A stretch of DNA of 47,115 nucleotides from Candidatus Aegiribacteria sp. (GTDB lineage Bacteria; Fermentibacterota; Fermentibacteria; Fermentibacterales; JCC-6), in the NCBI GenBank assembly GCA_023138735.1, contig JAGLOY010000062.1:1-47115 (forward strand), given 5' to 3'. Below the pieces are notes generated by a model that had not been told where the DNA came from, made no database searches, and saw only the letters and a program-made list of their open reading frames with translations. Positions 1,288 through 32,614 of the stretch are shown one piece after another. The translations under genes were made by a program, and so were the position numbers. Position 1 is the first letter of the stretch. Every line of letters starts with the position of its first letter.

Positions 1288-2544
1288 TTGCCGGATGCTT
1301 TCCTTCTAACTCTGGGTTGCCCCAAGAACGTAGCTGATTCGGACGCTTTTGCAGGTTGTCTGACTGGAGCCGGATGGAGGATAGCCAGGAGTCTTGAGAA
1401 TACTGATCTGCTTCTTATCAATACCTGCGCTTTCATAAAACCCGCGGTAGACGAATCTCTTGAGGTGATCGGGGAAGCTCTGGAATGGAAAAATGAAAGA
1501 CCAGGGAGAATACTCATCCTGGCGGGTTGTCTGCCAGGCAGATATCCGGTTGACGGATCCGGCGGGCTTGAGGGTTTTGACCTGATAATCGGCCCGGGGG
1601 ATACATCCGGTCTTGAGGAGTACCTTTCTCTGAAATCGGCATCCACCCCTGAACCTGCCGGAGGCAGGATATCAAGGTATCTGAAAATATCTGAAGGATG
1701 CTCCAATAACTGCTCTTACTGTACCATTCCACTTATACGAGGTGCAAGAAGAGACAGAAGTCCGGGGGAGATCCTTATGGATGCGGAGCACCTTGCGGAA
1801 CAGGGAGCGGTTGAGATAGGTATTGTCGGTCAGGATACCGCAAGCTGGAAGTACGATGGCGATTCCATATCATGGTTAATGTCACAACTAGCTGGTACGT
1901 ATCCTGATATCTGGTTCAGGCTATACTACGTTCATCCGGCATTCTACCCAGGCGATTTTCTTCCTCTTCTCGCGGAGCATGAGAACATCATGCCTTATAT
2001 CGATATGCCTGTTCAACATGTTTCAGACAGGATACTGAAAAGGATGGGCAGACCCTATACCGGGGATCATCTGAGGAAGCTTTTCGATATGTTTGAGAAT
2101 TCCGAAAAGATGCTATCAGTAAGAACAACAATGATAGTTGGATATCCGGGTGAGACCGAAGAGGATTTCAGTGAACTGATTCAATTCCTTTCTCAGTACA
2201 GGTGTATCAGGACTATCGCCGCTTTTCCATACTGGCCTGAAGAAGGGACCAGAGAGTTCGACATACACTCTCCTGAAGATATTCCCGATAGCAGCACCGT
2301 TCAGTCAAGGCTAGCGAGAATAGGGGATGCAGCGGATGAACATAACATTCTCTGGGCTGAGAGGCTGGAGGGGGATACAATGGACATTCTGGCGGATACA
2401 CCTCTGCTGGGGCATTCCCGTCTTGACGCACCGGAAGTTGATGGAGCCTGCTGTTTCGATCGAAGTGTCGAGCCTGGACGTATCATCAGATGCCGGATAA
2501 CCGGGGGGGCAGGATCCGACCTTACTGCCGAAGTGCTGAAATGA
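1288..2544 (+). CDS. rimO: Ribosomal protein S12 methylthiotransferase RimO
   Basis: Radical SAM enzyme that adds a methylthio group to the conserved Asp of ribosomal protein S12. The N-terminal methylthiotransferase domain has the three cluster cysteines (C11 in Leu-Gly-Cys-Pro-Lys-Asn, C47 and C81). The radical SAM cluster motif CSNNCSYC is at C138, C142 and C145. The Leu-Gly-Cys-Pro-Lys-Asn opening is typical of RimO rather than MiaB. The C-terminal TRAM-like part (about 355-418) is recognisable but short. The start is TTG, one base after the stop of the LolA-like gene; no ATG in this frame would preserve the N-terminal cluster domain. Translational coupling with the upstream gene is likely. 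Confidence 0.93.
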   Translation: MPDAFLLTLGCPKNVADSDAFAGCLTGAGWRIARSLENTDLLLINTCAFIKPAVDESLEVIGEALEWKNERPGRILILAGCLPGRYPVDGSGGLEGFDLIIGPGDTSGLEEYLSLKSASTPEPAGGRISRYLKISEGCSNNCSYCTIPLIRGARRDRSPGEILMDAEHLAEQGAVEIGIVGQDTASWKYDGDSISWLMSQLAGTYPDIWFRLYYVHPAFYPGDFLPLLAEHENIMPYIDMPVQHVSDRILKRMGRPYTGDHLRKLFDMFENSEKMLSVRTTMIVGYPGETEEDFSELIQFLSQYRCIRTIAAFPYWPEEGTREFDIHSPEDIPDSSTVQSRLARIGDAADEHNILWAERLEGDTMDILADTPLLGHSRLDAPEVDGACCFDRSVEPGRIIRCRITGGAGSDLTAEVLK

Positions 2545-2673
2545 TGGGTGTGGCATCTCGTCACATCAGGTTTTATCTTTACTTCTATGTGAAGTTATCA
2601 ATTTGTCGTGTTGTCTGAAGCCCGGGAAGAGGATTTCAGATTAAGTTCAATGGGCTAATATGAAGGAACAGAT

Positions 2674-3264
2674 ATGTATACTATTCTGATGACCGTTTTG
2701 CTTGCTCTGGCTCCATCCAATATGGAACTGGCCGAAGATGCGATCTTGCTTTCACTGCAGGAGCTTCCCGACAGCCTGTTATCATATGAGACCGATGAGA
2801 TCGTTATAGAGATCCTCGGGGAGCATTCGGGAAACTGGTTCATAGAACAGACAATTAATTCCGTCCTCCATGAGAATGGAATAACCGTATTTAAACGGGA
2901 GCTGGACTCGGAAGGCTCCAGTTTGACCCTTAGCGTTAGACCTATGGAGCTGGTCGTGGAGTATGGAGATGTAAGCAGACCGTGGATAATCGGTTCCAAA
3001 CGTGTTGATAGGATAGCCAAATGCGAACTCTCATTCACTCTGCTTGATGCCGATGGAACCATAATTATGACCGCCCGAACGAGCGGAATTGAAGAAGATA
3101 TGATTCCCTGGTCAGATGCTGAAGTTCTTAACGGATCGGAAGAGTGGGATTGGCTTTCCGGCGAAATGCCCGAAAACAGGGGTGGTGGAATACTGGAGCC
3201 CATAATTGTATCCGGTGTTGTGGCAAGCCTTGTATACCTGTTCTACTCCAGCCGCGCTGAATAA
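2674..3264 (+). CDS. Hypothetical exported protein with C-terminal membrane segment
   Basis: Not recognised. The protein has a short N-terminal hydrophobic segment (residues 1-13) that may act as a signal peptide, an acidic soluble region (about 15-165), a Gly-rich stretch and a C-terminal hydrophobic helix (about 175-192). That layout suggests export with a membrane anchor at the end. AAGGA lies seven bases before the ATG. A 129-base gap separates it from rimO and only 9 bases separate it from the next lipoprotein gene, so it probably starts a subunit of the operon with the two TPR lipoproteins. Its function is unknown. Confidence 0.7.
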   Translation: MYTILMTVLLALAPSNMELAEDAILLSLQELPDSLLSYETDEIVIEILGEHSGNWFIEQTINSVLHENGITVFKRELDSEGSSLTLSVRPMELVVEYGDVSRPWIIGSKRVDRIAKCELSFTLLDADGTIIMTARTSGIEEDMIPWSDAEVLNGSEEWDWLSGEMPENRGGGILEPIIVSGVVASLVYLFYSSRAE

Positions 3265-28916: not shown

Positions 28917-29135
28917 ACTTATCCAATCCAGTCTTTCAATTTCTTTCAGGCAGATTCTTCGTGAGTCTGTCAAGGCTAATAACGATCAATGTACTCCAGG
29001 GTTACCAGAAATGAACGGCATTTACAGTAAGCAGCAACTAATATACATTATGTATCACTGATTTCAATATTACATTTTGAAACATTATATTCGGGGAACG
29101 CCAGAAAGAATTAACCGCAATAATCGGAGATAACT

Positions 29136-29534
29136 ATGAAAATACTAGGAATTAATCTTGTTGCTGCTATTCTTATCTTCTCTGCCTGCCTCAGCAACTC
29201 CAACTCAGACAACTCTAATATGGAAACATTCGCAGTTCTGCAAACAATTGAATCTCCAGGTGTAAACGTTACCGGGCTTGCATGGGGAGAGGGAGATCTA
29301 TGGGCTGTGGACGCGGATAGCGACACGATCTTCCGAATAAACACTATTTCGGGAGAGATCATCAGTTCTTTCAAATGCGGCACCCCTTCATCATTCTATG
29401 CAACCGGTCTGGCATATAGTGAAGAGCATAATCGGATTCTTCTGGGGATATGGAATCACTCAAGCAACGGGTACGTTTACTCCTATTCCCCCGGAGGTGA
29501 GTACCTCGGCTCGGTGAGTATGTGCGGTGGTTGA
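29136..29534 (+). CDS. Beta-propeller lipoprotein, part before an in-frame TGA (candidate selenoprotein)
   Basis: First 132 codons of a protein that continues in the same frame after one TGA (29532-29534). A signal peptide ends in a lipobox with Cys18 (I-F-S-A-C). Residues about 40-130 contain NHL/SMP-type propeller blades: repeated T-G-L-A followed by L-W-A-V or its equivalent, then a D-x-I-F-R-I strand. The last residues before the TGA are Met-Cys-Gly-Gly, so if the TGA is read as selenocysteine the motif is C-G-G-U, a CxxU redox pair. CGGAGATAACT precedes the ATG. The alternative is a disabled gene. It is 219 bases upstream of the pepF start and diverges from it. Confidence 0.8.
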   Translation: MKILGINLVAAILIFSACLSNSNSDNSNMETFAVLQTIESPGVNVTGLAWGEGDLWAVDADSDTIFRINTISGEIISSFKCGTPSSFYATGLAYSEEHNRILLGIWNHSSNGYVYSYSPGGEYLGSVSMCGG

Positions 29535-29567
29535 GGCAACCCTGTCTCGTCGGTGACGGGACTGGCC
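29532..29567 (+). promoter_or_regulatory. SECIS-like stem-loop directly after the in-frame TGA
   Basis: After the TGA and five bases, CCC (29540-29542) pairs with GGG (29558-29560), U29543 bulges out, GUC (29544-29546) pairs with GAC (29555-29557), and the 8-base loop is UCGUCGGU. A lower GGC (29535-29537)/GCC (29565-29567) stem may extend it. A 5' bulged U between two short helices and a loop with G and U is the layout of the E. coli fdhF SECIS that binds SelB. The loop is larger and the spacing slightly shorter than in fdhF, so this is a hypothesis from hand folding. Confidence 0.4.
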
Positions 29568-29900
29568 GCACATATGGATTATCTCTACGTCTCTTCAAGA
29601 TCTCAGAATAGAACCTATCGTTATTTACTTCCCGGCATATCCGGAAGGACGAACAGTACTCCATTCGGAGGGAACAGTCGAACCTGGGATATTGCCCGTG
29701 ATTCCATGGGACTTATCTGGGTAGCTACCGATGATTCCGGAATTCCCGTTCGCTGTTGCGATTCATCAGGAAATACGGTTGTAGAGGTAGGTAGTAACAC
29801 CATTTCATCCGCTACGGGCGTGACACTTGATGATGAGGGTCACCTCTGGGTAAGCAACAACGACGACATGTTGCTGTACCGTATAGATGTAACGGAATAG
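29535..29900 (+). CDS. Beta-propeller lipoprotein, part after the in-frame TGA
   Basis: The frame stays open for 121 codons after the TGA and continues the propeller pattern without a break: V-T-G-L-A-A-H-M-D-Y-L-Y-V-S-S, then W-D-I-A-R-D-S-M-G-L-I-W-V-A-T, then A-T-G-V-T-L-D-D-E-G-H-L-W-V-S-N and the final blade strand. The combined product would be 254 residues. The first possible start, a GTG at 29553, has no ribosome binding site and lies in the stem-loop, so this is not a separate gene. The intact coding pattern after the stop argues against long decay. Two adjacent cysteines (R-C-C-D) lie in this half. Confidence 0.7.
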   Translation, partial: GNPVSSVTGLAAHMDYLYVSSRSQNRTYRYLLPGISGRTNSTPFGGNSRTWDIARDSMGLIWVATDDSGIPVRCCDSSGNTVVEVGSNTISSATGVTLDDEGHLWVSNNDDMLLYRIDVTE

Positions 29901-29948: not shown

Positions 29949-29992
29949 TTCCTGACTGTTTGATTTTTCATGTTGTAGAAAATGGAGAAAAT

Positions 29993-31381
29993 ATGCGTGA
30001 TTGCATCTACGGACTTAATAGAAAAGTACCCCTTCTTGATGGATCCATGGTTCGTTACGTCAATCTGGACAATGCAGCCAGTACGCCCCCACTGAAAAAT
30101 GTTGTGGACGGGATCAATGCGCTGGCGCCGTATTATTCCAGCGTTCACAGGGGGACCGGTTTCAAATCAAGATTGTGTACAGAAGCGTACGACAGGGCTC
30201 ATACTGTAATAGCGGAGTTCGTCGGGGCTGATCTGAACATAAATACGGTGATTTTCGTAAAAAACGCCACCGAAGCTATAAATAAGCTCGCTCACCGGCT
30301 CAAAACCCCAGAGGATCACGTTGTTATCACTACACGAATGGAACACCATTCAAATGATCTTCCATGGAGATACAACCACAATACTGTGCATGTACGGGCA
30401 ACAGTAGACGGGCGGTTCGATGAGGTGCATTTCGATTCACTTCTGAAGGAGTACAAAGGAAAAATAGCCCTTGTCTCCATAACGGGCGCCTCCAACGTTA
30501 CCGGATATATTCAGCCGATACATCATCTGGCCGAGAAAGTTCATGCTGCAGGCGCTAAAATCATGATAGATGCAGCCCAGCTTGCTCCGCACAGAAAAAT
30601 TGATATGAGACCGGATGACGACCCCGGTCATCTTGATTTCCTTGCAATTGCGGGGCATAAGATGTACGCTCCATACGGAACGGGCGCTCTTATCGGCCCG
30701 AAGTCCGAATTTCTGGACAGTGCCCCCGATTACTGCGGGGGAGGGACCGTTCATATGGTAACTCCGGATGAAGTCTACTGGGCCGGAATGCCGGACAGGG
30801 ATGAGGCCGGAAGTCCCAATGTAATGGGAGCTATAGCCATGGCAATAGCTGCGGAAACACTCATGAAAAAAGGGCTGGATCTTATAGCGGAGCATGAGCG
30901 GGAACTGACCTCATACGCGCTTGAAAAGCTTGGAGCCATAGAGGGAGTCACCGTATACGGAGAGACGGATCCTTTGAGGGCTTCTGAGAAGGTCGGGGTT
31001 ATTCCCTTTAATCTCCAGGATGTGGATCATGCGCTGCTCGCTGCAATCGCAGGTTATGAATTTGGTGTAGGCGTGCGCAATGGCTGTTTCTGTGCTCATC
31101 CGTACGTAGTTGAACTTCTGCAGCTGGAAGGTTCTGAGATACACAAATGGAGGAATCAGTTCAAGAACGGTGACAAAACAGGAATGCCTGGTATGGTCAG
31201 GATGAGTTTCGGCTGTTACAGTAATCATGAGGATGTTGACCGCCTGCTTGAAGTTCTTGAAAAAGTAAAAATGAATGAATACAGCGGGAAGTATTATCAG
31301 CTCCCGGAAACCGGTGAATTCCTGCCTGAAAATTACATTGATGATTTTTCGGATCACTGGAAGTACCCGGATTCGTTTTAA
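29993..31381 (+). CDS. Class V PLP enzyme of the cysteine desulfurase / selenocysteine lyase superfamily
   Basis: PLP-dependent fold-type I enzyme. The N-terminus has L-D-N-A-A-S-T-P, and H-R-G-T-G-F-K-S follows. A T-R-M-E-H-H-S-N-D-L-P-W block, the D-A-A-Q-L-A-P-H stretch (Asp binding the PLP ring) and the Schiff-base Lys in A-G-H-K-M-Y-A-P-Y-G-T-G fit the SufS/Csd group. A cysteine pair N-G-C-F-C-A-H-P stands where the catalytic Cys of group II desulfurases is found. The C-terminus is about 40 residues longer than SufS. ATG 29993 follows TGGAGAAA. No suf or isc genes adjoin it. Substrate could be cysteine, selenocysteine or another amino acid; it lies directly after the TGA-containing gene. 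Confidence 0.85.
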   Translation: MRDCIYGLNRKVPLLDGSMVRYVNLDNAASTPPLKNVVDGINALAPYYSSVHRGTGFKSRLCTEAYDRAHTVIAEFVGADLNINTVIFVKNATEAINKLAHRLKTPEDHVVITTRMEHHSNDLPWRYNHNTVHVRATVDGRFDEVHFDSLLKEYKGKIALVSITGASNVTGYIQPIHHLAEKVHAAGAKIMIDAAQLAPHRKIDMRPDDDPGHLDFLAIAGHKMYAPYGTGALIGPKSEFLDSAPDYCGGGTVHMVTPDEVYWAGMPDRDEAGSPNVMGAIAMAIAAETLMKKGLDLIAEHERELTSYALEKLGAIEGVTVYGETDPLRASEKVGVIPFNLQDVDHALLAAIAGYEFGVGVRNGCFCAHPYVVELLQLEGSEIHKWRNQFKNGDKTGMPGMVRMSFGCYSNHEDVDRLLEVLEKVKMNEYSGKYYQLPETGEFLPENYIDDFSDHWKYPDSF

Positions 31382-31417
31382 GCCGGAGTTGATTCTCAAA
31401 GATGCAAGGAGTACCAG

Positions 31418-32614
31418 ATGAACAGAAGAATAATAATCACGCTTATTCTAGCGCTGACCGCCACCGGTTTAACAGGCGCATGTGGCGGAACCGCCGAAGA
31501 GCCGCAGGCAGTGCAGGATACGACAGAAGTTGCGAAAAATACAGCATTCATTCTTGCTGACAGTGCTTCGGAGTCCTTAAGCAGCTGCTCGTACAGATTC
31601 AGGATATACATGAGCCCCTCTTCGGGTACACCTGAGCTGACGGGGAACCTGACAGGCAGGACGTCAGTCGAAATGGGGGCGCCTCTGCTCAGAATCGAGA
31701 TGGGACAGGATTCAACACCCCAGGACGGCATCGCCTCGGAGATCTCACTGATCCTTGTATCCGGATTTGATTCGGTTTATGCTTACAGCCTCGATGAGAA
31801 TACTTTTGAAAAGGGCGCCCTGGAAGATGGGGGTGCTAACCTCCTGGGACCCGGAGTTTATGCGGTGATGAACGAGTATTTTCTTGATGATCCCTTTGCT
31901 GATGAAATAGCTTCGCAGTCGGTGGTTTATGAAGGTCCTGACACTGTCGGAACAGTTCCGTGTGAAACATACATGGTAACCTATTCGGGTGGTCAGAAAG
32001 CCAGATGGTCACTTGGACTGGAGGATAATATTCCCAGGCGTGTGGAGCGCTTGATGACAGATCGTGATGGCAATGAAATATCCAGGATTCTGGAAGTCTA
32101 CGATCTGGACATTTCGCCTGAAATAACTGACGATATTTTCACAATTGTACTCCCTGAGGGTACAAACGTGGAGCTCTATAGCGCATTCCTTACGGTCGGC
32201 ACACCAGCGCCCTCCTGGACCCTGACAGACCGTGACGGGAATACAGTATCCCTTGAGGATATGAGAGGCAGCGTCGTTGTTCTGGATTTCTGGGCAACAT
32301 GGTGTGGCCCATGCGTTACCGTAATGCCGGAGATACAGTCATTGTTCGATAGCTACCCGCATGATCAGGTTCGGGTATACGGTGTGAATGTATGGGAAAC
32401 CGGTGATCCCGTTTCATTCATGGATGAAAGCGGGTTTATGTACGGTCTGCTTCTTGAGGGTGACGAGGTTGCCGGTGATTACAAGATAACTGGAATCCCC
32501 ACCATGTACATAATAGATCAGGAGGGAAGAATAGCCTTCGTCGAAGTAGGAGCAAATCCTGAAATCGGAGAGATGCTGACTTCCACTGTGGATAATCTGC
32601 TTGAAGCTGAATAA
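31418..32614 (+). CDS. TlpA-type thioredoxin lipoprotein with N-terminal LolA-like domain
   Basis: Extracytoplasmic thiol-disulfide protein. Lipobox Cys22 (T-G-A-C) follows the signal peptide. Residues about 40-245 resemble the LolA/outer-membrane sorting-protein fold that often precedes redoxin domains in these bacteria. The C-terminal redoxin (about 262-398) has the W-C-G-P-C active site (295-299), the cis-Pro in I-T-G-I-P-T-M-Y and a TlpA-type insertion. The gene follows the class V PLP gene by 36 bases, so it could supply reductant to that neighbourhood. Confidence 0.88.
   Translation: MNRRIIITLILALTATGLTGACGGTAEEPQAVQDTTEVAKNTAFILADSASESLSSCSYRFRIYMSPSSGTPELTGNLTGRTSVEMGAPLLRIEMGQDSTPQDGIASEISLILVSGFDSVYAYSLDENTFEKGALEDGGANLLGPGVYAVMNEYFLDDPFADEIASQSVVYEGPDTVGTVPCETYMVTYSGGQKARWSLGLEDNIPRRVERLMTDRDGNEISRILEVYDLDISPEITDDIFTIVLPEGTNVELYSAFLTVGTPAPSWTLTDRDGNTVSLEDMRGSVVVLDFWATWCGPCVTVMPEIQSLFDSYPHDQVRVYGVNVWETGDPVSFMDESGFMYGLLLEGDEVAGDYKITGIPTMYIIDQEGRIAFVEVGANPEIGEMLTSTVDNLLEAE

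Follow-up and report, generated by a model that had tools for sequence, protein, structure and literature searches.

In mammalian thioredoxin reductase, a flavoprotein with a GCUG end, adjacent cysteine (Cys) and selenocysteine (Sec, U) form a selenylsulfide. Among propellers, selenium-binding protein 1 (methanethiol oxidase) is linked to selenium and a reactive Cys, its selenium being bound and not encoded as Sec. We know of no Sec form of glutaminyl cyclase, nor of Sec in NHL-repeat propellers. The bacterial selenoproteins closest in motif are those with CU or CxxU sites in the available parts of the 2026 review PMC13188914 (KCU-star, MbdU, and SaoL; AhpD-related and CMD-like), which likewise place Sec beside or three residues from a Cys and combine UGA with a bacterial SECIS. 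By the names and models given in those parts, they belong to other domain families, with no propeller among them.

The window (the whole 47,115-nucleotide stretch of Candidatus Aegiribacteria DNA analyzed here) carries a gene at 29136..29900, on the plus strand like all of its features below, that very probably encodes an exported propeller selenoprotein, with UGA 29532-29534 decoded as Sec. By direct reading, a continuous frame of 254 codons runs through one TGA to a TAG end, with conservation on both sides of the TGA, and a likely ribosome binding site (GGAG, 29126..29129) lies 6 nt 5′ of the ATG. The sole TGA (29532..29534; Sec133 from this reading and the alignment of relatives) stands right after Cys-Gly-Gly, position and residues being as the earlier note had them. 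Its proposed partner is Cys130 (TGC, 29523..29525), which is invariant in 54 aligned members of the family.

The first codons (29136..29189) were read by eye as a tentative signal sequence with a lipobox-like end, FSAC, at Cys18. The product had been called a lipoprotein, and the lipobox-like ending is indeed present, but 10 other aligned members of the CGGU subfamily lack it and Phe at −3 of a lipobox is not canonical, so lipidation stays tentative. A C-terminal sorting domain (type IX secretion cargo) is absent from the window protein; TIGR04183 matches 29 of 54 relatives.

AlphaFold2, run with Cys in place of Sec, predicts a five-bladed propeller (pLDDT 89.3, and 76 across residues 131–140) with Cys130-Sec133 on the loop between the second and third blades. 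By contrast, the motif of thioredoxin reductase sits in a C-terminal tail, and the two proteins are unrelated. The nearest structures are propeller-type glutaminyl cyclases (3mbr, 2faw, 3nol, 2iwa, and 3nok), which share the predicted five-bladed fold at 13–15% identity; we do not claim a glutaminyl cyclase function, as the evidence for it is the fold match alone. NHL-repeat propellers (Brat and TRIM2/3/71) are likewise bladed and are reached through weak Pfam NHL/Reg_prop and PDB profile matches, with a lower Z (about 19) against the model. Specifically, the whole protein reaches 21.9 against PF01436 (NHL; cut-off 20) and just exceeds the Reg_prop cut-off, in both cases with no single stretch passing, while the DUF6923 match falls below cut-off and, at E 0.001, no NCBIfam model is matched by the window protein.

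The words propeller, NHL, FG-GAP, and Fermentibacter are absent from the available text of PMC13188914, of the 2022 review PMC9312934, and of the deep-Sep paper (PMC12013277). Searches by title, with bioRxiv and most subscription papers outside their scope, found neither Fermentibacter selenoproteins nor an encoded bacterial Sec propeller (NHL, beta-propeller, and SECIS topics). Given the missing NCBIfam match, the weak Pfam matches, and the absence of these terms from the available parts of the reviews and of deep-Sep, we call this an apparently undescribed selenoprotein family, within the bounds of the literature searched, in line with the novelty first proposed for it.

Searching the own genome (a draft of 3.22 Mb in 192 contigs, 91.3% complete) with the read-through protein returns seven matches, itself included, each with one TGA. 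With a 54-member profile, 83 matches come up in that genome, and the top seven (242.7 to 447.7 bits) all have a TGA in the motif column, the window's own match also running into its TAG stop. The eighth best scores 85.6 bits and has no internal stop, and the matches below it are mostly confined to the C-terminal part of the profile. Across the phylum, the family is matched in 42 of 42 genomes, and TGA-bearing members occur in all nine genera among the matches listed. Named species genomes, searched with the CGGU subfamily as the sole query, yielded 34 pattern matches; the 22 that could be confirmed are all in Candidatus Fermentibacteria, Fermentibacteraceae, Fermentibacterales, Aegiribacteria, Sabulitectum, Fermentibacter daniensis, and candidate division Hyd24-12.

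We aligned the motif region in 82 rows, drawn from 77 loci: 7 of the own genome, 30 taken as the search gave them, and 40 picked, 20 for lacking a stop and 20 for carrying TGA, so that TGA proportions reflect the choice of rows. TGA falls in one column in 58 rows (57 distinct members, one locus having been fetched twice); a further 18 rows span the motif without TGA, and 6 do not span it. In the 25 aligned copies from the 22 named loci, which overlap with the 57 distinct members and are thus not an independent set, the motif codon is TGA every time. The same TGA in so many members makes a read error very unlikely.

Cys precedes the TGA in all 58 rows. The earlier note saw a CxxU pair, and Cys-Gly-Gly-TGA is what the window gene has, but CGGU occurs in just 11 rows and CU predominates, with Cys at −1 in 44 rows and at −3 in 14 (the other three being 2 CSGU and 1 CPGU). 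Close homologues have TGA at codon 133 and keep the Cys, with no Trp or variable residue there. The 18 Sec-less rows are all distant: 9 have Ser and no Cys, and 9 have one Cys that can be aligned to either column. As such, none of the relatives in the 82 rows has a Cys unambiguously in the place of Sec, and searches built on Cys/Sec pairs would tend to miss the family. The deep-Sep authors state that their own method may fail on selenoproteins without Cys homologues (PMC12013277, available parts), a blind spot that seems to apply to the propeller family.

These data also bear on whether translation truly stops at the UGA or the codon is an error, i.e. a pseudogene, a sequencing error, or two genes. 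The draft state of the assembly leaves room for such a reading, as does a further ORF that begins with the GTG at 29553. However, the TGA recurs in the seven own copies and in all nine genera, no ribosome binding site is seen 5′ of that GTG, just as the earlier note had remarked of the first start codon after the TGA, and the two halves form a single propeller in the model. Both halves are conserved as protein, bearing out the claim that coding continues past the TGA; divergence at the three codon positions is alike upstream (0.53/0.43/0.70) and downstream (0.52/0.45/0.66) of it. We regard a stop or error as next to negligible.

Decoding as Sec calls on dedicated machinery, and the own genome has SelB (327.9 bits, cut-off 242.25) adjoining SelA (513.8 bits, cut-off 267.9) on contig C188, as well as SelD (317.9 bits, cut-off 125). 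The SelD gene itself has an in-frame TGA, in the context PCAGUAGK. Sec-containing SelD is already known (PMC13188914, available parts). A tRNA-Sec search found no complete tRNA-Sec in this genome, its matches being other tRNAs: we rejected a 49-bit RF01852 match as selC because ARAGORN identifies it as tRNA-Ser(CGA), and seven other RF01852 matches were likewise discarded (3 Ser and one each of Leu, Lys, Trp, and Gln). When the 3.1-kb region with selC from a genome of the same genus is compared with own contig C163, query positions 1575 to 3093 match at 81%, and the match stops at the last base of the contig (8602 of 8602), which, in the direction of the match, starts with the final 23 nt of selC. 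Since the match ends at the contig end and the last 23 nt are there, the own selC is, as judged from this comparison, broken by the contig end and seen as its 3′ end only.

Elsewhere in the phylum, tRNA-Sec scores 68–76 bits in 36 of 42 Fermentibacterota genomes, against a background of ~50 bits or less, and is found in 22 of the 24 better genomes, the exceptions being the own genome and G015; the anticodon is TCA in 30 of 30 loci tested with ARAGORN. SelA is matched in 38 of 42 genomes, 35 of them above cut-off, and all 24 better genomes have a match. One genome, G016 (73% complete), has no selA match, no tRNA-Sec above background, and no TGA propeller among the matches listed, a pattern that reflects either trait loss or just the incompleteness of the assembly.

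Downstream of the TGA there is a hairpin, as the earlier note had observed, but the stem given there (CCC, bulged U, GUC / GAC-GGG, with an 8-base loop) is not the best one: folding and covariation favor an 8-bp stem, GUCUCGUC (29544-29551) / GACGGGAC (29555-29562), closed by GGU (29552-29554). The element as a whole, GTCTCGTC / GACGGGAC with loop GGT, occupies 29544..29562, and its loop lies 17 nt past the TGA. Among family elements, the GG[T/C] is found at 17 nt in 22 and at 20 nt in 35. For the single copy, folding energy does not stand out (z −1.32; 21 of 200 shuffles do as well or better), and the weight of the hairpin case is carried by covariation.

Over the 8-bp stem of 37 distinct elements, compared with 500 shuffles, 92.9% of cells are paired (shuffled 66.1%), 66 cells are double changes (shuffled 20), and the covariation score is 0.648 (shuffled 0.195), none of the shuffles being as high on any of the three, although picking the GG position per sequence for the best stem favors pairing and kinship can inflate covariation scores. 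Two of the five measures are unexceptional, namely double-change pairs (6, a value 138 of 500 shuffles reach) and further pair types (16, reached by 44 of 500). With the stem slid to other registers, the covariation score is at most 0.144. The published bacterial SECIS model (PMC13188914, available parts) is fitted by 52 of 57 elements in the local fold, and the five misses are narrow: a G at the third loop position in two, −7.4 kcal/mol in one, and a misplaced inner pair in two. For background, when long frames ending in TGA were put to a similar SECIS test, 4 of 117 ends passed, an FG-GAP Sec site among them.

Read-through alone does not identify the inserted residue, and UGA might be read as another amino acid through a suppressor tRNA or a changed code. 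Several observations stand against this, including the Sec machinery set out above, the GG-loop hairpin, whose stem covaries and whose spacing is that of the bacterial SECIS model, and a thioredoxin-like family (below) with TGA in place of a CxxC Cys. In addition, TGA is an ordinary stop here: it terminates 20 of 36 long ORFs picked from the window's ORF list, and 5 of the 20 overlap the following start. A changed genetic code is thus rejected, in agreement with the earlier note, and we judge insertion of another residue very improbable.

Decoding of UGA 29532-29534 as Sec is, by contrast, strongly supported by comparison of genes and genomes, and the machinery, the family-wide TGA, and the covarying hairpin that fits the SECIS model together bear out the propeller selenoprotein first suggested. 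SelA, SelB, SelC, and SelD of the cell itself would decode this UGA, with the hairpin 10–28 nt 3′ of it directing Sec insertion, and the product would be an exported five-bladed beta-propeller, to judge from its predicted fold. Cys130 and Sec133 would pair on the loop between blades two and three, and their selenylsulfide may open and close while reducing or oxidizing a substrate outside the cytoplasm. That the two residues form a reversible redox pair is an inferred step that we consider somewhat more probable than not.

The site might instead bind a soft metal or selenium species (Hg, Cu, Ag, or Se) outside the cytoplasm, with Sec inserted in the same way and no redox catalysis. Selenoproteins with CU motifs and metal-linked names, i.e. 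MbdU, the MerB-like SaoL, and CopZ-like form 2, are listed in the available parts of PMC13188914, and the many family copies per genome, among the matches listed, would fit a sink. Yet CU, CGGU, CSGU, and CPGU interchange within the family, which would be easier to reconcile with a resolving Cys than with a fixed metal geometry. Moreover, the 54-member alignment, which omits three rows with a second TGA, has 13 invariant columns, and these include Cys130 and position 133 but no conserved His or further Cys. We consider metal or selenium binding unlikely, and the redox pair remains our preferred reading of the site.

After the selenoprotein gene, window positions 29960-32614 carry a cysteine-desulfurase-like gene, whose best model, SufS, scores 273 bits (under the cut-off of 475), and, further downstream, a gene whose product has a WCGPC thioredoxin domain like that of ResA. 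These gene types would suit selenium or thiol chemistry, and a functional link is putative. Neither the cysteine-desulfurase-like gene nor the upstream pepF was found beside any of 52 other family loci, counting one paralogue within the own genome, in flanks of at most 1.5–3 kb.

Two more families with in-frame TGA accompany the propellers. Members of an FG-GAP/T9SS family (L034 8322-9539; L032 14710-15939; L190-L201 and L217-L222) have adjacent Sec-Cys, mostly as GUCTGATNPQ, and a 9-bp GG-loop hairpin, TCCACA-GG[C/T]-TGTGGA. The own genome has 8 TGA copies, one with UG rather than UC, and two of the copies sit just upstream of Sec propeller genes. Two relatives lack the TGA: one has ET, with Sec and Cys both lost, and the other has Asp for Sec with the Cys kept.

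A thioredoxin-like T9SS protein (L033 11450-12469, i.e. G000:C137:31473-32465; L202-L209, L212-L216, L223, and L224) opens its UxxC motif with TGA, where five relatives with CxxC have TGC or TGT; going by the codons, this is the classic Sec/Cys exchange. There are 3 TGA copies in the own genome, one adjoining a Sec propeller gene. Beside a Sec propeller gene, around position 2723 of L043 on the minus strand, we also observe a long frame with an in-frame TGA in UxTC and a GG-loop hairpin.

Altogether, the candidate Sec genes of the own genome number at least 19, in four families (SelD, seven propellers, FG-GAP, and thioredoxin-like). A filter requiring TGA, a nearby Cys, and a GG hairpin, applied to 202 kb of own stretches chosen largely for their Sec genes, retained 11 of 421 candidates (7 propellers, SelD, 2 FG-GAP genes, and one probable chance match) and overlooked a thioredoxin-like TGA gene.

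It is possible, as a tentative wider proposal, that Fermentibacterota have an extracytoplasmic selenoproteome unlike any described, in which Cys-Sec sites were placed on propellers at least twice, in the five-bladed family and in the FG-GAP family. These proteins and a Sec thioredoxin-like protein would be exported largely by the type IX route and make up a selenol/thiol redox relay outside the cytoplasm. On that proposal, the two propeller families, which have few or no plain Cys counterparts, would have been missed by surveys based on Cys/Sec pairs.

The gene at 29136-29900 adds a selenoprotein family on a fold that is absent from the available parts of the 2026 review (PMC13188914). Propeller selenoproteins are found phylum-wide, many genomes having several copies, and lack a plain Cys form; because discovery methods lean on Cys homologues, families of this kind tend to be missed. 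Ordinary annotation would also truncate Sec propeller genes at the UGA, which would mask part of the exported repertoire of uncultured bacteria.
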